A stretch of DNA of 64,000 nucleotides, from NCBI RefSeq assembly GCF_002563855.1, contig NZ_PDJQ01000001.1, positions 496,001 through 560,000 on the forward strand. Reading direction: 5' to 3'. The translations under genes and the position numbers were made by a program. Numbering within the stretch: position 1 is the first letter of the stretch; each line of letters starts with the position of its first letter. Below the pieces are notes generated by a model. It worked only from the letters and a program-made list of their open reading frames with translations. It ran no database searches and was not told where the DNA came from. Shown piece by piece: positions 9,854 through 23,436 of the stretch. Source of the DNA: Tepidiforma thermophila. Its GTDB lineage: Bacteria; Chloroflexota; Dehalococcoidia; Tepidiformales; Tepidiformaceae.

Positions 9854-12502
9854 ATGAACCTCCACCAGAAGCTTGAGTCCCAAGGTTGGGACTTTGTCGC
9901 CCACATTCCCCTACCCGACCGGCCAGGCAGGTTCACTGATCCCCGCAACCTTCCATTGCGCCCAACAACCCTCTCGTGGCTGACGAAGCATTATTCATCA
10001 ATTTACAGCCACCAGGCCGAGGCCATACGCCACGTCGCAAAGCAGCAGAATGTCCTCTTGGCAACAGGAACCGCCTCCGGGAAGACATTGGTCTTTCATG
10101 TGGCAGCACTCGAACACCTCCAGACCGAACCGGATTCCCGGATTCTTGCGGTCTATCCCTTGAAGGCGCTCGCCGCCGAGCAAGAGCTCAGGTGGAAACA
10201 AGTACTCAACCACCTTGGCATTCAGGCCACAGTCGCACGCATCGACGGGAGCGTTCCGGTTGCAACCCGCACTAAGCTCATTGCAACACATCGCATCATC
10301 TTAGCAACGCCCGATGTCATCCACGCCTGGCTTTTATCTCATCTAGCTGACAAGGCCATAGTTAGGTTTCTCCGTCACCTCCGGCTCATTATTCTCGACG
10401 AATTACACACATACACGGGCGTGTTCGGCTCTAATTGCGCGTTCTTATTTCGCCGCCTCCGTCATGCTCTCCGGGAGCTGCGCTCTCCAAATCGTTTCCT
10501 CCTCGCTTCTGCAACCATCAACGACCCAGAAACAACAGTAAAGCACCTCCTGGGAATACCCTGCCATATCATTGCACCTGAGGACGACGGCTCTCCTCGC
10601 CATCCAACCGATATCTATTTATTGAAACCTCCCGGCGAACGGGACGCATTGACGGAAACAAGCAATTTCCTCCGCTCCCTCACTGCTGAACAAAGAGATG
10701 AAGCATTTATTGCGTTCGTAAATAGCAGGAAACAGACCGAACAATTGGCGGCTATCGCCCTGCGCTTCCAAGAGGACGAGGCAGATTGCAGCGACCAACA
10801 AATGGAAGTCCAAGTTCACGACGACGCTTTTTCCGAATTGTATTCTCCAAAGATTCTGCCATATCGTGCTGGATACGAAGACCGCGACAGGTCCGCAATC
10901 CAGCATGCGCTTACTTCGGGAACGATCAGCGGAGTAATTTCAACAAGCGCCCTGGAACTTGGCCTCGACATTTCCGGACTAACAACAGCTGTTCTTTTCG
11001 GAGTACCTCCCACCGCCACTTCGCTATGGCAAAGGATTGGGCGCGTCGGGAGGAATAAACCTGGTCGCGTTTACATCATCTATTCTGGTTCACCGTTGGA
11101 CGATCACGTTTTTGCCGAACCACAGCGCCTACTTGAAAGACCGCTCGAATCGCCTGCATTGTATCTCAATAATCAGAGGATCCAGTACATCCACGCTCTT
11201 TGCGTCGCGCGCCCAGGCGGCGAACATGATCAGCTGCACCAGTCACAGTCAACAGAAGAGTTCACCACTCACATCGAGTGGCCAGATGGATTCATAGATC
11301 TCTGCAACGCTGAACGTTCGGGAAACGTTCCGAAAGAACTTCTGCCCCTTAAGCACGAGGCAGGGGACGATCCGCATCATGCGTATCCCTTACGTGACGT
11401 CGAATCTCAGTATCAAGTCGAATATCGAATGGGATCAGAACTTCGAAGCCTGGGGCGGTTATCTTTTTCTCAGGTAATGCGAGAAGCTTATCCAGGGGCA
11501 ATCTACTATTACATTACGAGCCCTTATCGAGTATACCAAGTTCTTCCCCAGCAGCGACTGATCCGAGTGCGAAAAGAGCGACACTATTTCACTCAGCCAA
11601 TGGCTCTCCCATTTGGTCTATTTCCTCGGCTTGACCAGGAGTCTATTTTGCGAATTGGACGACTGGGGCGAATCTACCTCCTAGAGACCGAGCTGCTAGC
11701 TCGTGAATCAGTTGTCGGTTTTCGAGAACGTAGAGGGCTCAATACTTTCACTGTTAATTACCCGCTAGACGAAGAGCGGGGGTATCGATATTCTTTGACA
11801 AACTTTTCTCGCTATTTTTCGACTTCTGGATGTCTATTGTTTCATCCGGAATTTTTGTCGTACAAAGATTCACTGCACACAGTGAGTAAAATTCTATTTG
11901 AAGCGTTTATGATTTGCCTGCCATTTGATAGACAGGACATTGGTTTCGGTTCGGGAGACATCAAAGCCGATTTCGGTGAAATCAGGTCTGGTGATCGATT
12001 TCTCGCAATATTTGATCGAACATACGGGAGCTTGCGGCTTTCTGGTTCCTTATTTGACGGAGAGAACCTTTTAAATACTGTCTCGTTCGCCTTAGAAATA
12101 TCAAAACAACGACATTACTCTGGCGGAACAATTGAAGGTGAGCTTGTTGGTGAAGATCATGTGAAATTGCTTTCGGTCCTCCAGAATGAAGTCCGTTCTC
12201 ATTCAATCGAATGGTTATCGAAATCAAAGGAATCCTCGAAAAATTCCGATGCGGTTCGTGTCATCGTTCCTGGAAGCAAAGGAATCAACGTAGTAAACGG
12301 TCAGGAATTTTTAGTTGAGAGCGTATTTTTCCATCCTGGAACGGGAGAGTTGCGGTATCGCGGAAAGAATGAGTCATCGAAAGATCATGTAGACATACTT
12401 AGCATTGGCTTGGTCAGTGAGATCCCTGGGGTGTCAACTATCGGATTTTACGATCTCGATCTTGGCACCATAGTTGAGGCGAGTGATTATTTTCAATCAT
12501 GA
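9854..12502 (+). CDS. Hrq1/YprA(MrfA)-like superfamily 2 helicase, zinc-cluster cysteines lost
   Basis: 882 aa. Motif I (GTASGKTL), motif II (DELHTY), motif III (SATI) and motif VI (QRIGRVGR) define an SF2 DExH helicase. The C-terminal third has a divergent MZB/DUF1998-like layout (TSGCLLFHPE..., FDRQDIG, IFDRTYGSLRLSGSLF) as in Hrq1/YprA/MrfA, but the four-cysteine zinc site that normally closes that domain is absent. Base composition is unlike its neighbours: sampled 60-bp lines give about 63% GC near the 5' end and about 47% in the 3' third. It has its own promoter, no partner gene and no transposase nearby. Likely horizontally acquired; a DNA-repair or anti-phage role is possible but not shown. 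Confidence 0.8.
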   Translation: MNLHQKLESQGWDFVAHIPLPDRPGRFTDPRNLPLRPTTLSWLTKHYSSIYSHQAEAIRHVAKQQNVLLATGTASGKTLVFHVAALEHLQTEPDSRILAVYPLKALAAEQELRWKQVLNHLGIQATVARIDGSVPVATRTKLIATHRIILATPDVIHAWLLSHLADKAIVRFLRHLRLIILDELHTYTGVFGSNCAFLFRRLRHALRELRSPNRFLLASATINDPETTVKHLLGIPCHIIAPEDDGSPRHPTDIYLLKPPGERDALTETSNFLRSLTAEQRDEAFIAFVNSRKQTEQLAAIALRFQEDEADCSDQQMEVQVHDDAFSELYSPKILPYRAGYEDRDRSAIQHALTSGTISGVISTSALELGLDISGLTTAVLFGVPPTATSLWQRIGRVGRNKPGRVYIIYSGSPLDDHVFAEPQRLLERPLESPALYLNNQRIQYIHALCVARPGGEHDQLHQSQSTEEFTTHIEWPDGFIDLCNAERSGNVPKELLPLKHEAGDDPHHAYPLRDVESQYQVEYRMGSELRSLGRLSFSQVMREAYPGAIYYYITSPYRVYQVLPQQRLIRVRKERHYFTQPMALPFGLFPRLDQESILRIGRLGRIYLLETELLARESVVGFRERRGLNTFTVNYPLDEERGYRYSLTNFSRYFSTSGCLLFHPEFLSYKDSLHTVSKILFEAFMICLPFDRQDIGFGSGDIKADFGEIRSGDRFLAIFDRTYGSLRLSGSLFDGENLLNTVSFALEISKQRHYSGGTIEGELVGEDHVKLLSVLQNEVRSHSIEWLSKSKESSKNSDAVRVIVPGSKGINVVNGQEFLVESVFFHPGTGELRYRGKNESSKDHVDILSIGLVSEIPGVSTIGFYDLDLGTIVEASDYFQS

Positions 12503-12542: not shown

Positions 12543-13106
12543 TCACCGCCGCCGGTAGCGCCCTGCCAGCTCGCCGGCGGCGATGGCGTGCCGGGCGATC
12601 TCCCGCTCCACGTCGTCCCGCGGGGCGCCCGGGCCTGCCGCGAGCGGTGCATCGAGCGCATAGATGAGGAAGCGGTAGCGGTGCTCCTTCCCCCGCGGGG
12701 GACACGGCCCGCCGTAGCCCGCGCGGCCAAAGTCGTTCTTCGCCTCGATCGTCCCCGGCGGCATCGGCCCGCCCGGTGAGGCGCCGGAATCGAGCGCGTC
12801 CACCTCCGCGGGCAGGTTCCAGGCCAGCCAGTGCACGAACCCGCCGGCGTCGGGGTCATCGACGACGATGGCGAAGGCAACTGTCCCCTCGGGCGCGCCC
12901 TCCCAGCGGAGCGGCGGCGAGCGGTCGGGGCCGTCGCACGTGTACCCAGGCGGGATGGCTGCGCCGTCGGTGAAGGCCGGGCTCGTCACCGCCAGGCGGC
13001 CGGGCGGCTCCGGCAGGTCGAGCGGCTCGCGGCCGCCGCAGGCCGGGGCGAGGAGCGCGGCAGCGGCGAGGGCGCCGAAGGTCAGCCAGGAGCGGAAGCG
13101 TTCCAT
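12543..13106 (-). CDS. YbhB/YbcL-family (PEBP/RKIP-like) lipoprotein
   Basis: 187 aa from the ATG at 13106 (MERFRSWLTFGALAAAALL), which gives a signal peptide ending in the lipobox LLAPAC; an in-frame start ten codons earlier would spoil the signal. The mature part is a phosphatidylethanolamine-binding-protein fold with the conserved ligand-site strands: SPPLRWEGAP, DDPDAGGFVHWLAWN and the GYGGPCPP loop. Bacterial members are small ligand-binding proteins of uncertain function. Its coding end faces the helicase end, 40 bp away, and it is divergent from the heliorhodopsin gene, so the pair share a 145-bp gap. Confidence 0.87.
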   Translation of the reverse strand: MERFRSWLTFGALAAAALLAPACGGREPLDLPEPPGRLAVTSPAFTDGAAIPPGYTCDGPDRSPPLRWEGAPEGTVAFAIVVDDPDAGGFVHWLAWNLPAEVDALDSGASPGGPMPPGTIEAKNDFGRAGYGGPCPPRGKEHRYRFLIYALDAPLAAGPGAPRDDVEREIARHAIAAGELAGRYRRR

Positions 13107-13153
13107 GGCGTCATCACCCCGGGCTGGAGGGTACACCGGCAGGGGCCGGCGTG

Positions 13154-13185
13154 TTGACGCATCCCCCGGCCCGGGGGGCTATACT
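13154..13185 (+). promoter_or_regulatory. heliorhodopsin promoter with long spacer and central palindrome
   Basis: TTGACG (13154-13159) and TATACT (13180-13185) are separated by 20 nt, too long for unaided sigma70 recognition. The spacer holds a perfect palindrome CCCCCGG-C-CCGGGGG (13163-13177). Nineteen- to twenty-base spacers with a central dyad are the mark of promoters remodelled by MerR-family activators, which include the light sensors LitR/CarH. The link to light is inference. Confidence 0.4.
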
Positions 13186-13251
13186 CCGCCCGGCCCCGCG
13201 GCGCGGGGGCGCACGGCGCCCCGGCTTCCCGCGGCGGACCGGAGGGAGCGC

Positions 13252-14016
13252 ATGGCACCAGACGAGCCCTCGCCCGTTTACCGGCGGCTGCGCCGGTACA
13301 ACCTCGTCATGGGGCTGGTGCACCTCGCGCAGGGTGCGGCGGTCCTCGCCCTCAGCAACGATTTCGCGCTGCCCGTCCACGCCACCTTCATGGAAGGGCC
13401 GCCGGGCCGGGAGCCGCCGCGCCTCGAGCACCTGTTCGACCTGCGCATCGGGCCGGCTGTCGCCGCCTTCCTCTTCCTCTCGGCGGCGGCCCACCTGCTC
13501 CTCGTGCTCCCGGGCGTCTTCGACTGGTACCGGCGGAACCTCGAACGCCAGCGGAACGATGCGCGCTGGATTGAGTACTCGGTCAGCGCCTCGCTGATGG
13601 TGGTGCTGATCGCGATGCTGACCGGCATCGGCGATATCGCCGCGCTGGTCGCCATCTTCGGTGTCAACGCCGCGATGATCTTCTTCGGGCTCGTGCAGGA
13701 GCACAGCGAACGCCCCGGCGAGGGCCGGCTCCTGCCGTTCTGGCTCGGGTGCATCGCCGGCGCGGTGCCGTGGCTGGCGATCGGCATCTACCTTCTCACG
13801 CCGGGGTCGCCGGGCGAGCCGCCGGCGTTCGTCTACGGCATCTTCATTTCGCTGTTCATCTTCTTCAATGTGTTCGCGCTGAACATGTGGCTGCAGTACC
13901 GGCGCATCGGCCCCTGGCGGAGCTACCTGTTCGGCGAGGCGGTCTACATCTTCCTCAGCCTGGCGGCGAAGTCGGCGCTGGCCTGGCAGGTCTTCGCCTC
14001 AACCCTGGTCGACTAA
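13252..14016 (+). CDS. heliorhodopsin
   Basis: 254 aa with seven hydrophobic segments and the family hallmarks: RWIEYSVSASLM in helix 3 and FLSLAAKSALAWQVF in helix 7. Lys240 is the retinal Schiff-base lysine, Glu108 the counterion, and His24 and His81 match the inner-cavity histidines (His23/His80 of heliorhodopsin 48C12). The ATG at 13252 follows GGAGG with proper spacing; an upstream open frame has no similarity. Heliorhodopsins bind retinal, insert with the N-terminus inside, do not pump ions and occur in organisms without an outer membrane; signalling or enzyme control is suspected. No carotenoid cleavage or retinal genes lie in the window. The stop overlaps the next convergent gene by 4 bp. 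Confidence 0.93.
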   Translation: MAPDEPSPVYRRLRRYNLVMGLVHLAQGAAVLALSNDFALPVHATFMEGPPGREPPRLEHLFDLRIGPAVAAFLFLSAAAHLLLVLPGVFDWYRRNLERQRNDARWIEYSVSASLMVVLIAMLTGIGDIAALVAIFGVNAAMIFFGLVQEHSERPGEGRLLPFWLGCIAGAVPWLAIGIYLLTPGSPGEPPAFVYGIFISLFIFFNVFALNMWLQYRRIGPWRSYLFGEAVYIFLSLAAKSALAWQVFASTLVD

Positions 14017-14513
14017 TACTTCCGAACGCCGTACGCCGAGATGCGCTCCCAGGCGCCGGCGGTCCACCAGCCAAGGATGCTGCTGATGTGGTAGGCCACG
14101 GCGTCGACGTCCACGCGGCGCTCCGGCGTGCTGTGGACCAGCCCCACGGCCTCCACGCAGCCGTCGTCGGTCAGCCGGTAGGGGATGCGCGTGACGATGT
14201 ACCGGGTCCAGCTCCGCGCGATGAGGAGTTCGCCCTCGGCCATGATGCCGAGCCACTTGTCCTCCATCTCCCGCGGCAGGAGCCCGCGGCGCAGCCAGCG
14301 GGATTCGACCGGGCTGAAGATGTGGTGGAAATCGAACTCCACCGTCTTCCAGCCGGGGTACGGCTGGAGCTCCTTGCTCCAGTGGATGAGCCGCCCGAGC
14401 CACTCGGACGTGGGCGGGGGCGGCTCGGGGATCGGCTCCCCGGCGAGGCCGTACCAGCCGCGGGCCTCCTCAATAACGTCGAGGTCGAGGGTGACGGTGC
14501 GGCGGCGCGGCAT
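14013..14513 (-). CDS. hypothetical protein, convergent with heliorhodopsin
   Basis: 166 aa, not recognised. It is rich in aromatic residues (Trp/Tyr/His), has no signal peptide or membrane segment, and contains short charged strands (PGWKTVEFDFHHIF, RSWTRYIVTRIPYRLT). The ATG at 14513 opens with MPRRRTVTLDLDVIEEARG. Its stop codon overlaps the heliorhodopsin stop in tail-to-tail orientation, so the two cannot be one transcript but may interfere. Codon use is like its neighbours. Confidence 0.65.
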   Translation of the reverse strand: MPRRRTVTLDLDVIEEARGWYGLAGEPIPEPPPPTSEWLGRLIHWSKELQPYPGWKTVEFDFHHIFSPVESRWLRRGLLPREMEDKWLGIMAEGELLIARSWTRYIVTRIPYRLTDDGCVEAVGLVHSTPERRVDVDAVAYHISSILGWWTAGAWERISAYGVRKY

Positions 14514-14573: not shown

Positions 14574-16187
14574 CTACGATGCCGCAGCGGCACCGCTGCC
14601 GGCGGGGAGCGCCTCCGTCTTCCGCCGGCGGCGGCCCATCGCCTTCGCCACCGCCGCCACAAAGTTCGGGGCCGTGCCGACGTAGTCGTGCGGGAGCTTC
14701 ACCATCGGCCGGCGGAACTTCGGGTGGCGCTCCACGTAGGCCTGGACCTCCTCGAGCGTCACGCCGTACTCGTCGAGCGCCCGCTGGAGCTCCTCGCGCG
14801 CCTTCTGCTTCGCCTCGAAGAGCTTCATCTGCACGCGGCTCTTCACGTTGACCTCGCTGTCGCCGGAGGTCTCGATCGGGATGAAGACGCTGTCCGCCAG
14901 TTCGCTGACGACCTTCGACTGGACGCCGTCGGACTGGGTGCTGGGCATGCAGCCGAACGGCTTGATCGAGGTGACCATGTGCGCCTTGCGGTGGAGCACA
15001 GCGTGGAAGTGCTTGCCGACTTCCATATGCCCTTCGCCGCCGCCGATGCGGACGTTGTAGTAGTCGCCGGCGTACTCGGCGAGCTGCTTCTGGGAGACGA
15101 GCGGGTCGGTCCGGAAGGTGAGGGCCGAGCGATAGAAGTTGTAGAAGCTCTTGTAGGCGCAGAGGGCGATCCAGAGGGCGAGGAGCCGGCGCCGGGCGCC
15201 CTGGCGGATGCCGATGCTCTCCTTCGTGCGGGAGAAGGCGCTCCAGAGGATGTAGTCGATCCAGGTTCCGACCGGCTCGGCGACCACCTCCGCGCCTTCC
15301 GCCACGAGCCACCGCTGCAGGTGGTAGCTGCCGTCGCCCTCCGTGGTCTGGGCCCAGAACTCGCCGGTGATCTTGACCTTCGGGCGGACGCGGAGGAAGT
15401 CGACCTCGATCTCGTTGAAGCGGGAGCGGATGCGGCGCAGCGCCAGCCAGAGCGAGCGGCCGTTGCGGAACGTTTCGCCGAGATGTTCCCGCGCCCAGTG
15501 GAGGACGGCGTCGGTCGCGCCGGGCTCGACTTCGTACGGGCGGATGCGGTGCGCCATCGTGTTGACGATGTCGGAGGCGATGATGGCCCGGAGGATCGCG
15601 AGGTAGAAGGAAGTATCGAGGACGAGGCCGTCGTGTTTCGGCCCGGCACCGAGGAGGCCGTTCTCCTCGAGGCCGCCGGTCTGCTGGAAGATGAGCACCC
15701 GGAAGTTGGGGAAGCCGGCCTCCGTGAGCGCCTTGCGGTACTCCGATTCGTACATTCCGAAGCGGCAGGGGCCGCAGGCGCCGGCGGTGAGGAACACGTA
15801 CCGGTCTTCGATATCGGTTTCGCCGGCGGCGCGCAGTTCGAGCAGGTATTTCACGAGGTTTCCGACCGTGTAGTAGGTCGGGTTGCACTGGCCGCGGTTG
15901 CCGTACTCCTTGCCGAGGGCCATGGCGGCGTTATCGGGCACCGGCAGGGGGCGCACGCGGTAGCCGAGCCCCTCGGCGGCGGCGCCGATCAGGTCATCGT
16001 GCGTCCGCGTCAGGCCGCCGAAGAGGATGGTCACCCTGTCGCGCTCCTCCCGGGTGAAGGGCCGCTCAACGGGGCGGCGGAAGTGGCGAACCTCCCTGGC
16101 CGGTACGCCGAGGGCCTCGCGGAGCTCGGCTTCGTAGGCGCGCGTCTTCTCGAGGATGTCGTCTTCGCTGATGAACTGCTGCTGCAT
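14574..16187 (-). CDS. 2-hydroxyacyl-CoA dehydratase D-component-like / double-cubane cluster protein
   Basis: 537 aa, ATG at 16187 behind a clean GGAGG. It resembles the HGD-D fold that carries an iron-sulfur cluster: cysteines in GNRGQCNPTYYT and TAGACGPCRFGMYESEY could be ligands. In related bacteria this region is the C-terminal part of very large BcrA/BadF-type activase proteins; here it is a separate gene 49 bp after the 1183-aa activase, so the pair are co-transcribed. Known relatives use ATP-driven electron injection to reduce difficult substrates (2-hydroxyacyl-CoA, benzoyl-CoA, small molecules for double-cubane proteins). The substrate here is unknown. Confidence 0.8.
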   Translation of the reverse strand: MQQQFISEDDILEKTRAYEAELREALGVPAREVRHFRRPVERPFTREERDRVTILFGGLTRTHDDLIGAAAEGLGYRVRPLPVPDNAAMALGKEYGNRGQCNPTYYTVGNLVKYLLELRAAGETDIEDRYVFLTAGACGPCRFGMYESEYRKALTEAGFPNFRVLIFQQTGGLEENGLLGAGPKHDGLVLDTSFYLAILRAIIASDIVNTMAHRIRPYEVEPGATDAVLHWAREHLGETFRNGRSLWLALRRIRSRFNEIEVDFLRVRPKVKITGEFWAQTTEGDGSYHLQRWLVAEGAEVVAEPVGTWIDYILWSAFSRTKESIGIRQGARRRLLALWIALCAYKSFYNFYRSALTFRTDPLVSQKQLAEYAGDYYNVRIGGGEGHMEVGKHFHAVLHRKAHMVTSIKPFGCMPSTQSDGVQSKVVSELADSVFIPIETSGDSEVNVKSRVQMKLFEAKQKAREELQRALDEYGVTLEEVQAYVERHPKFRRPMVKLPHDYVGTAPNFVAAVAKAMGRRRRKTEALPAGSGAAAAS

Positions 16188-16236
16188 CTCTGCAACCTCC
16201 CAACGGCTGATGGGTGAAGGGCCCGGCGGCCCCGGA

Positions 16237-19200
16237 CTAGAGCGAGGTGATGTCGATGAGCTGGCGCTGGCCGGCGGGAGCGCAGCCCGTGGCGCAGGCA
16301 CCCCCGGCGCAGCCGCCGCAGGCTGCCGCGGCAGCCCCCGAAGAGCTCATGGCGATGCCGAGCGGCACCAGCCCCTCCCAGTTCCGCGGCGCGGGCACGT
16401 CGGCGGCCGGGCGCGCGCGCCCGTATCCGCTGCGCAGGGCGGCCTCATAGGCGCGCACGGCCTCGCGGATGCGGACCTCGGCCTCCGCTTCGGCGCGGAG
16501 CCGGTCTTCATAGCGGCGGAGGAAGTAGGCGATCGTCTCGACCCGGATCTTGATCGAGCCGGAGGGGCGGTTTTCGTCGATATCGTGGAAGGTGAAGTAC
16601 GGCGTCCCCGTCGCCGCCACGATCTCCTCGACGACGTTGTAGATCGGGGCATCGTGCCCGCACTTGAAGTTCGAAAGGTCGAGCGCGACGAGGTTGGGGT
16701 GGCGGGCGACGTACTTCGCGCCCCAGATCTTCCGGCTGGAGTTCTCGGAGTAGGCGTTCTTCCAGGCGTCGCGGATATCGCGCGGGCTGCGGATGACGCC
16801 CTGCCGCACCTCCTCGCCGAAGAGCCGCTCGAGGATGTCCTCGTCATCCGGCAGCGTGTCGACCGTGAAGATCGGGTAGCCGCACTTCTGGATCTCTTCG
16901 AGGATGCCGTGGTTGAGCCCGGGGTCGTTGTGGTAGGGGCGCCCGAGGAGGACGACGCCGACCCGGTGCTCGCGCTCGAGCTGCTCGAGGACGGCGCGGG
17001 CGCGCGCGCGGAGGCTTTTCCGGTGCCGTTCGAGCGCGAGCCAGCCCTGCCGCACGGCGAACGCGTTCTCCTCCCGCGAGACGTCGCCGAGGGCGGCGCG
17101 GGCGAACTGGAGCAGCTGGCGCTCGAGCAGGGGCGGGTCGGCCATCGCGAGCACGGGGTCGAAGTACCGGATGCCGAACCCGGCGAAGACGTCGCCCTCC
17201 TTGGTGAACGCCGCGCGGACGACGTTCGGGGTCGCGGCCACGGTCGGGCAGGCGGCCGAATCAAGGGTGTGCTCCAGCTCGGAGGGGAGGCTGATGACCG
17301 ACGGGAAGAAGATGATGTCCGGCTTCCGCCGCCCGTAGACGAGCTGGTGGACATGAGCGAGGGCGACCTTGCTCGGGAAGCACTGGTCGATCGACCCCCG
17401 CCGGGAGCCCTCCTTCCACATCGTCTCGTTCGTGAACTCGGAGAAGAAGATGCTGGAGGGCTTGAGGCCGAGGCTCTCGAAGTAGGCCGTGAAGAACGGC
17501 GCGAGCGAGTACATGTTGAGCACCCGCGGCATGCCGACGGTGAGCTCGGCGCGGCGGGCCCGGTCGCCCCGGCTGCCCCAGGGGCGTTTGCGCAGCCAGC
17601 CGCGGCGCGGCTCCGGGGCCTGCTCCGCCTCCTGGGAGCGGAACGCCTCCCGGGCTGCGAGGTCGGCAAAGTCGGGGTGGGCCCGGCGCAGCTCATCGAG
17701 GCGCGCCTTGATCGCCTTCATATCGGTCACGTCTTCGACGGCGCCCTTTTCGCAGGTGGCGACGATGTAGCGGCGCGCCTCGCCCTGCGGCGTCTTCGTA
17801 TCGATGAAGGTGCGGAGGCAGCTGTTCTTGCAGAAATGGCAGCGGGTCGATTCATCCCTGCGGGCGGTGAATTCGAGCTGCTCGGCCGCCTCGAAGCCGA
17901 TAAAGGAGGTGGAGCGCACGCCGGCCACGCGCATCGCCTCCAGCGCCGCCCCGATGGCGCCCGATTCGCCGCAGTAGCGGTGGACGAAGACCTCGGCATC
18001 CGGCACCCGCGAGCGGATGAAATCGACCTGGGCCTTGACGGCGGCGAGGTTGTACTGGGTGCCGCCCTGGAGGAGGAAGCGGCGCCCGAGCCGGGCGAGG
18101 TTCGGCTCCTGCACCACATAGAGCCAGATGTTCTTCGGGAGGACGGCGGCCAGGCCGGCCATGATCTCCTCCCGCGTCCAGCCCAGCTGCTGGAAGTTCA
18201 CGATGTCGGATTCCATGAACACCGCGCAGCCGTAGCTGAAGACCGGCGTCCGCCGGGCCGTGAACGCCGTCTCGGCGTACTGCTCGACCCGGTAGCCGAA
18301 CCGCTGCGCCGTGGACTGGAGGAAGTAGCCGTTGCCGGCCGAGCACTGGGTGTTCAGGCGGAAGTCCTTCACCTTCCCACCCTGGAGCATGATGACCTTG
18401 ATGTCCTGCCCGCCGACATCGCAGATGACATCGATGTCGCGGTAGTAGTGGAGCGCTGAGAGGGTGTGGGCCACCGTTTCGACGACGGCCACATCGGCCC
18501 CGAGGGTCTCCTTCAGCATGTCCTTGGCGTAGCCGGTCGTGCCGATGGCGCCGACTTCGAGGCGGGCGCCCTGCGCTTCCACCTGGCGGCGGAGGTCGGC
18601 GAGGATGGCGCGCACGTCGTCGATCGGGTTGCCGGCCGAGAGCCGGTACGCCCGGGCGAGGAGGGTGCCGTCCCGGTCCATCACCACGCCCTTGGTGGAG
18701 GTCGATCCGCCGTCGACGCCGATGAAGCCCTCGACCACCTGGCCCGGGCGGAAGGCCGGCGGCCCGAACGGCGGCAGCCGGTACCGCTCAGCGAAGGCAG
18801 CGGCCTCTTCGGGGCTGCTGACGAGCGGCGGGCCGCCCGTCGCCTCGCGGAGATGGTCGCGGCCGTGCTCCACATACGCTTCGAGGGCGGCGCGGCCACG
18901 GTACCGCCCGACCCCGTCTTCCTCGGCGAGGCCGTAGCGGGCAGCGCCCAGGGCCGCGAAGTACTGGGCATCGGGCGGGACGACCACGAGCTCCCGGGGG
19001 TCGACCCCTTCCGGCAGCGGGAAGCGGCGCTCCTCCCAGAGGCGGGGGATGTGGTTCCGCCAGGCGTCGCGGAGGCCCGGCAGGAAGGTGTTCGGGCCGC
19101 CGAGGAGGAGCACGCGCGGGCGGAGCGTATTGCCGCGCGTCAGCACGCTCAGGTTCTGCTGAACAATGGCATCGAAGAGCGAGGCGATGAGCTCTTCGGC

Positions 19201-19788
19201 CGGGACGCCCTGCTTCTGCAGCCCGTTGATGTCGGTCTCGGCGAAGATGCCGCACTTGCCGGCGACCGGGTGGATGCGGATGCCGTCGTAGCGCAGCTCC
19301 GCCAGCGCTTCGGGGGAGATGCCGAGCTTGGCCCGGATCTTGTCGATGACGGCGCCGGTGCCGCCCGCGCACTTATCGTTCATGCTGGGCAGCTTCCGCT
19401 TCCGCCCCGTGGCCGGGTCTTCGACCCAGATGATGATCTTGGCGTCCTGCCCGCCGAGCTCGATGACGGAGCCCGTGCCGGGTTCGAAGTGCTCGACGGC
19501 GAGCGAGACGGCGTTCACCTCCTGCACGAACTTCGCGCCGATCAGGTCGGCGAGCGCGTTGCCGCCGCTCCCGGTGATGAAGACCCGGAACCGCTCCGGC
19601 GGGCCGCCGAACGCGGCCTCGATCCGCTCGAGGAATTCGAGCACCTTCTCCGGCTGGCGGGTCTCATGGCGCTGGTAGTCCTTCCAGAGGATCGCGAACG
19701 AGGCCGGGTCGACCACCACCGCCTTCACCGTCGTCGACCCGACGTCGAGGCCGACGAGCAGCTCACCGCGTGCTCGTTCGTCGTTCAT
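16237..19788 (-). CDS. giant acyl-CoA dehydratase activase: two BcrA/BadF ATPase domains plus DUF2229, Cys-rich tail
   Basis: 1183 aa. Domain 1 (about 10-290) is an ASKHA-fold activase with GLDVGSTTVKAV, the ELGGQDAK phosphate loop and Cys140 (NDKCAGGTG) and Cys179 (GKCGIFAETD), the cysteines that bridge the [4Fe-4S] cluster between subunits in HgdC-type activators. Domain 2 repeats the fold (GVDGGSTSTKGV, DVGGQDIKV, TQCSAGNGYF, YGCAVFMESD). A CHFCKNSC motif links to a DUF2229 region. The last 35 residues hold a Gly/Ala-Cys tail (ACGGCAGGACATGCAP) that could bind metal. It should hydrolyse ATP to drive low-potential electron transfer to the partner encoded next. Confidence 0.88.
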   Translation of the reverse strand: MNDERARGELLVGLDVGSTTVKAVVVDPASFAILWKDYQRHETRQPEKVLEFLERIEAAFGGPPERFRVFITGSGGNALADLIGAKFVQEVNAVSLAVEHFEPGTGSVIELGGQDAKIIIWVEDPATGRKRKLPSMNDKCAGGTGAVIDKIRAKLGISPEALAELRYDGIRIHPVAGKCGIFAETDINGLQKQGVPAEELIASLFDAIVQQNLSVLTRGNTLRPRVLLLGGPNTFLPGLRDAWRNHIPRLWEERRFPLPEGVDPRELVVVPPDAQYFAALGAARYGLAEEDGVGRYRGRAALEAYVEHGRDHLREATGGPPLVSSPEEAAAFAERYRLPPFGPPAFRPGQVVEGFIGVDGGSTSTKGVVMDRDGTLLARAYRLSAGNPIDDVRAILADLRRQVEAQGARLEVGAIGTTGYAKDMLKETLGADVAVVETVAHTLSALHYYRDIDVICDVGGQDIKVIMLQGGKVKDFRLNTQCSAGNGYFLQSTAQRFGYRVEQYAETAFTARRTPVFSYGCAVFMESDIVNFQQLGWTREEIMAGLAAVLPKNIWLYVVQEPNLARLGRRFLLQGGTQYNLAAVKAQVDFIRSRVPDAEVFVHRYCGESGAIGAALEAMRVAGVRSTSFIGFEAAEQLEFTARRDESTRCHFCKNSCLRTFIDTKTPQGEARRYIVATCEKGAVEDVTDMKAIKARLDELRRAHPDFADLAAREAFRSQEAEQAPEPRRGWLRKRPWGSRGDRARRAELTVGMPRVLNMYSLAPFFTAYFESLGLKPSSIFFSEFTNETMWKEGSRRGSIDQCFPSKVALAHVHQLVYGRRKPDIIFFPSVISLPSELEHTLDSAACPTVAATPNVVRAAFTKEGDVFAGFGIRYFDPVLAMADPPLLERQLLQFARAALGDVSREENAFAVRQGWLALERHRKSLRARARAVLEQLEREHRVGVVLLGRPYHNDPGLNHGILEEIQKCGYPIFTVDTLPDDEDILERLFGEEVRQGVIRSPRDIRDAWKNAYSENSSRKIWGAKYVARHPNLVALDLSNFKCGHDAPIYNVVEEIVAATGTPYFTFHDIDENRPSGSIKIRVETIAYFLRRYEDRLRAEAEAEVRIREAVRAYEAALRSGYGRARPAADVPAPRNWEGLVPLGIAMSSSGAAAAACGGCAGGACATGCAPAGQRQLIDITSL

Positions 19789-19939: not shown

Positions 19940-23436
<3,497 letters not shown>

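Follow-up and report, generated by a model that had tools for sequence, protein, structure and literature searches.

A genuine, full-length and canonical bacterial heliorhodopsin (HeR) is encoded at positions 13252-14016 of the window, the 64,000-nucleotide stretch of DNA analyzed here. The gene is notable mainly for its host, which, unlike nearly all related carriers, has genes that could make retinal. We suggest that the protein probably binds all-trans retinal and, rather than pumping, acts slowly as a green-absorbing light sensor or regulator, with retinal that is possibly home-made.

The window encodes a canonical heliorhodopsin

The gene was identified from profile matches, a search of the PDB, a family alignment and a structural model:

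13252..14016, + strand, heliorhodopsin gene (254 aa)

The protein matched the Pfam family PF18761 over the entire profile (1-242 of 242; 346.8 bits, E 7.4e-104, cut-off 26.7) and the NCBIfam equivalog NF038020, "heliorhodopsin HeR", at 329.5 bits (cut-off 100). Matches returned by phmmer from the PDB were all heliorhodopsins, the best being 48C12 HeR (E 7e-77). An AlphaFold2 model built from a 48-row alignment (pLDDT 88.7, pTM 0.85) has the seven-helix heliorhodopsin fold, with modeled helices at residues 8-34, 66-84, 87-98, 103-123, 129-152, 161-182, 192-217, and 225-251. It superposed on HeR crystal structures with Z-scores of 30-33 (33 for the 48C12 structures, which share about 50% identity), compared with about 22 or less on type-1 rhodopsins. 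A type-1 microbial rhodopsin was considered and ruled out, with 11-18% identity to the type-1 structures and the phmmer matches confined to HeRs. Profiles, PDB search, and superposition thus agree on the identity proposed by the earlier note, and both the profile searches and the predicted structure place the protein in no other seven-helix family.

We then mapped key residues through an alignment of 149 HeRs. The residues that the earlier note had paired with those of 48C12 are its counterparts here as well: K240, E108, H24, and H81 correspond to K241, E107, H23, and H80 of 48C12. E108 and K240 are invariant across the 149 sequences; both cavity histidines, H24 and H81, are present in the window HeR, and this pair is not universal in the family. 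The retinal-binding lysine of TM7 lies in the expected SxxxK motif (S236-xxx-K240), and the TM3 counterion E108 is accompanied by the Schiff-base-region serines S77, S112, and S236. The whole set of proton-path and hydrogen-bond residues taken from work on 48C12 (PMC9726877) is kept (N17, H24, Q27, S77, H81, Y93, R105, E108, S112, E150, E229, S236, K240, and W245). Positive charges are concentrated in an Arg-rich N terminus (RRLRR) and in the B-C, D-E, and F-G loops, and the C-D and E-F loops are short and have no Arg or Lys. From these charges and the model, the N terminus is predicted to lie in the cytoplasm, in the inverted topology.

The window HeR resembles 48C12 (PDB 6su3, 6su4, 6uh3) in full-length homology, in its key cavity and counterion residues, and in a GPPG loop; it differs in having M212 at the color-tuning site occupied by Q213 in 48C12, in its Chloroflexota host, and in its gene neighbors. 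TaHeR of the Thermoplasmatales archaeon SG8-52-1 (6is6, 7u55) has the same fold (Z 33, 47% identity) and the same key residues, but is archaeal and has YDEI in the A-B loop (PMC9385722) instead of GPPG.

Another comparison comes from Dehalogenimonas alkenigignens, a strict anaerobe of the same class as the host. Its protein, DaHeR, has been expressed and absorbs at 539 nm (PMC7807009); the loop reads FDEI in DaHeR (PMC9385722) and GPPG in the window HeR. HeR genes are also found in a cultured Chloroflexota strain, SAR202 strain JH545, which unlike the window host is marine and has two HeR copies, with a proposed role in light sensitivity (PMC10444878).

Heliorhodopsins in the host and its class

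The window corresponds to C1:496001-560000 of a single-contig genome of 2,743,337 bases that is 98.6% complete. Tepidiforma, the probable genus of the host, belongs to the Dehalococcoidia; colonies of Tepidiforma flava are pale yellow, and neither rhodopsin nor carotenoid is mentioned in that description (PMC10284905). Named relatives of the window HeR come from Chloroflexi, Dehalococcoidia, and Actinomycetota, the nearest being Chloroflexi MAGs at 80% identity, in line with the Chloroflexota host that had been suggested from the sequence. That HeR occurs in Chloroflexota, and in this class, was already known, and surveys list Chloroflexi among the carriers (PMC8612252, PMC11109279). We detected HeR in 76 of the 393 genomes sampled from the class, and a viral collection yielded only three HeRs, all distant. 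Three HeR genes (L099:4046-4780, G115:C239, and G389:C110) have an in-frame stop and are possibly decaying genes or assembly errors. HeR is also present in small complete genomes (1.4-1.5 Mb) of family f14 (G013, G049, and G098) and in g77 genomes; COX1 and phytoene synthase stay below cut-off in these f14 and g77 genomes, with the exception of G211 (COX1 1e-79).

The host genome has candidate genes for retinal synthesis

The earlier note had remarked that no retinal genes are adjacent to the HeR gene. This is true of the neighborhood but a poor guide to the genome, which carries a carotenoid cluster and an RPE65-type oxygenase elsewhere. The cluster (C1:2375-2381 kb) consists, on one strand, of crtB, crtI (TIGR02734, 584 bits), a cytochrome P450 gene, a CarR-type lycopene cyclase gene (CarR domain, TIGR03462), and a family 2 glycosyltransferase gene; a profile search of the genome found a single phytoene-synthase-family gene. 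The P450 and the glycosyltransferase suggest that the main product of the cluster would be a modified carotenoid.

We searched the genome for a carotenoid 15,15'-dioxygenase. The Blh/BCD retinal synthase (PF15461) had no match in the host genome, and a full-length RPE65-family carotenoid oxygenase is encoded at C1:974300-975691 (PF03055, 504 bits). In an alignment with a solved carotenoid 9,10-dioxygenase, its closest solved relative, all four iron-ligand histidines are present (168, 226, 290, and 475). Apocarotenoid-15,15'-oxygenase, whose product is retinal, also matched. Because the host enzyme is most like 9,10- and 13,14-cleaving enzymes and reaches 361 bits against a curated equivalog cut-off of 675, it may make other apocarotenoids.

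Across the 393 genomes of the class, Blh exceeded the cut-off in none; the same search, run on six actinobacterial genomes as a positive control, found it in three. RPE65-family genes occur in 12 of the 393, 11 of which belong to the host's family. Three genomes of the host's genus (G129, G141, and G173) have an RPE65-type oxygenase and no HeR, so HeR cannot be the sole reason for its retention. Within the family, HeR is present in 5 of the 11 oxygenase carriers, roughly as expected by chance. A phytoene/squalene synthase over the cut-off is found in 11 of the 70 HeR carriers searched, and in three of these 70 it is joined by an RPE65-type oxygenase: the host (G000), its sister species G060, and G288. 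Judged by gene content, the host could make its own retinal, and most HeR carriers in the class seem not to.

Many carriers in the class also have no terminal oxidase, and the role of HeR in genomes that appear unable to make retinal is a puzzle. The host genome does contain terminal oxidases, so the organism probably uses oxygen. It seems to be a thermophilic aerobe that can be grown in culture, and it has both carotenoid genes of its own and an oxygenase that is a candidate for forming retinal; for these reasons it is suited to asking whether a cellular HeR carries retinal natively and how light affects the cell.

Predicted photochemistry and alternatives

Chromophore binding, photocycle, sensor role, and color are assigned to the window HeR by analogy with characterized HeRs. 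All-trans retinal would be bound on Lys240 with Glu108 as its counterion. Light would isomerize the retinal, and the Schiff-base proton would move to Glu108 and on to the cavity formed by His81 and His24. Trp245 (W246 in 48C12) and the cytoplasmic cavity would rearrange, and the resulting conformational change would act on a partner protein, so that HeR would not pump but would sense light or regulate, on a slow time scale. The light-driven proton route and the rearrangements in 48C12 were described by QM/MM and mutant work (PMC9726877). As to supply, crtB, crtI, and the CarR-type lycopene cyclase would produce a cyclic carotenoid that the RPE65-family oxygenase would cleave in place of Blh.

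The color-tuning positions of the window HeR are Q149, M212, and A239. In an Ornithinimicrobium HeR that absorbs at 556 nm, a Q-to-M change at the M212 position shifts absorption by -5 nm and a change at the Q149 position has no effect (PMC7807009). On the basis of these residues and shifts, we expect the window HeR to absorb green light at about 545-551 nm.

Two alternatives bear on this reading. The retinal might be taken up from outside, from mat or sediment phototrophs, with the host oxygenase serving another purpose. We regard uptake as a serious possibility, though somewhat short of an even chance: HeR is common across a class in which known retinal pathways are scarce, as the Blh and phytoene/squalene synthase counts above attest, and a rhodopsin-bearing bacterium that has no known retinal gene has been described (PMC7734400); against this, few HeR carriers combine the two gene families as the host does. 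The other alternative concerns what the protein does with light. The earlier note took the function of the family to be still unknown, which is partly out of date, as regulation of glutamine synthetase (PMC9529153), of photolyase (PMC9769723), and of an ABC transporter (PMC11109279) by HeR has been reported, and a viral HeR is reported to transport protons (PMC9448325). The window HeR shares family, fold, counterion, and lysine with the viral transporter V2HeR3 and might likewise be a light-driven proton transporter. Transporting HeRs are, however, marked by E191 in TM6 and by the tryptophan W195 (PMC9448325). TM6 of the window HeR (192-217) has no Glu at all, which makes the transporting type unlikely, and 48C12 itself gave no light-induced pH change (PMC9726877); we therefore give transport hardly any credence and retain the slow sensor or regulator as the probable role.

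Gene neighbors do not identify a partner

Two genes flank the HeR gene in the window:

12543..13136, - strand, PEBP (YbhB/YbcL-like) protein with a lipoprotein-type N terminus (PF01161 3.7e-39, TIGR00481 1.1e-34)
14013..14513, - strand, 166-aa open reading frame with no Pfam or NCBIfam match

The arrangement is as first described: the PEBP gene is divergent from the HeR gene, and the HeR stop and the convergent 166-aa frame overlap by four bases. Both had been named as potential partners, and the retention of the 166-aa gene in related genomes had been put forward as a check. The idea that either protein is a dedicated signaling partner of HeR draws on G060, a sister species of the same genus, in which the PEBP-HeR-166-aa block is kept (identities of 92% for HeR, 80% for the 166-aa protein, and 78% for PEBP). 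Other evidence points away from it. Given the divergent and convergent orientations, neither gene can belong to an operon that includes HeR. Members of the 166-aa family turned up in 3 of the 38 genomes of the host's family; HeR is lacking in one of these three (G173, 31% identity), and the remaining HeR carriers of the host's family have no member of the 166-aa family. PEBP adjoins HeR elsewhere in G060 only, and the HeR-less G129 has a 57% PEBP homolog in the same variable segment; distant homologs of both proteins are found in this segment of HeR-less genomes. We consider a dedicated partnership with either protein very improbable.

The segment itself is variable. G173 and G129, both of the host's genus, have other content and no HeR in the interval bounded by dnaN and the gene at 21226-23430. 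A DEAD-box helicase gene (window 9854-12502) lies between dnaN and the PEBP gene, is missing from that place in G060, and is apparently a strain-variable insert. Also missing from the matching place in G060 is a pair of genes at window 14574-19788: a smaller one without a Pfam match and a larger relative of the 2-hydroxyacyl-CoA dehydratase activases (BcrAD_BadFG, DUF2229).

Homology clustering of all open reading frames at 39 HeR loci of the class, with flanks of up to ~8 kb, found no universal HeR neighbor. Recurring neighbors at subsets of these loci are SDR, MerR-B12, DUF2177, DegV, NAD epimerase, and DUF1295 proteins, none of which is present at the window locus, and HeR neighbors in other families of the class are quite unlike those in the window.

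Two proposed natural states of the heliorhodopsin cavity

Among the 149 distinct HeRs, the positions of 48C12 His23 and His80 are His/His in 119 and Leu/Leu in 30, and no sequence is mixed. The Glu counterion and the Lys are kept in all, Leu/Leu proteins included. Leu/Leu rows include L060, L061, L067, L070, L072, L110, L112-L114, L126, L127, L131, L140, L141, and L160. Two genomes (G052 and G126) each have one His/His and one Leu/Leu copy.

In a tree of 119 rows, a single clade (SH-aLRT 99) contains 23 of the 24 Leu/Leu rows, and the group nearest to it, which has a weak support of 87, includes the window HeR. L140, from Actinomycetota, is Leu/Leu yet stands apart and has almost none of the other signature residues of the clade. 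By parsimony, the Leu/Leu state needs two changes in the trees of 119 and of 149 rows, also with the His columns masked. We did not adopt two separate origins, as a single origin was not rejected by the AU test (p 0.34). A strong COX1 match is rarer in Leu/Leu genomes (3 of 18, versus 27 of 52; p 0.012 by Fisher's test, without correction for kinship).

When the cavity histidines of 48C12 are mutated, the protein still forms M and cycles slowly (PMC9726877). We tentatively propose, as an idea that we hold to be possible and somewhat doubtful, that the HeR cavity has two natural states, His/His and Leu/Leu, switched jointly; that the Leu/Leu clade, common in oxidase-poor Dehalococcoidia, would cycle without the proposed His23/His80 acceptor; and that retinal in the window host would come from an RPE65-type oxygenase and not from Blh. 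The natural Leu/Leu double mutants are ready-made variants for the disputed terminal proton acceptor.

Start and upstream region of the HeR gene

Two short elements upstream of the gene were read from the sequence:

13241..13245, + strand, GGAGG, likely ribosome-binding site of the HeR gene
13180..13185, + strand, TATACT, possible -10 element (TATACTCC, kept in G060)

The start at 13252 is backed by the same-length homolog in G060 (92% identical) and by the GGAGG just upstream. A consensus scan found no promoter of standard spacing ahead of the HeR gene. TTGAC lies 20 nt upstream of TATACT in the window, versus 15 nt in G060, and we are unsure of its assignment as the -35 element. A MerR-type promoter was considered and rejected: the 20-nt TTGACG-TATACT spacer and a CCCCCGG-C-CCGGGGG dyad resembled a MerR operator, but in G060 the spacer is 15 nt and a complete dyad of this kind is missing. 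Elsewhere in the host genome, a regulator with MerR and B12-binding domains (CarH/LitR-like; G000:C1:1852672-1853604, L215:6673-7605) adjoins a CrtI-like gene of the amine-oxidase family, and similar regulators adjoin HeR in G288 and G314.
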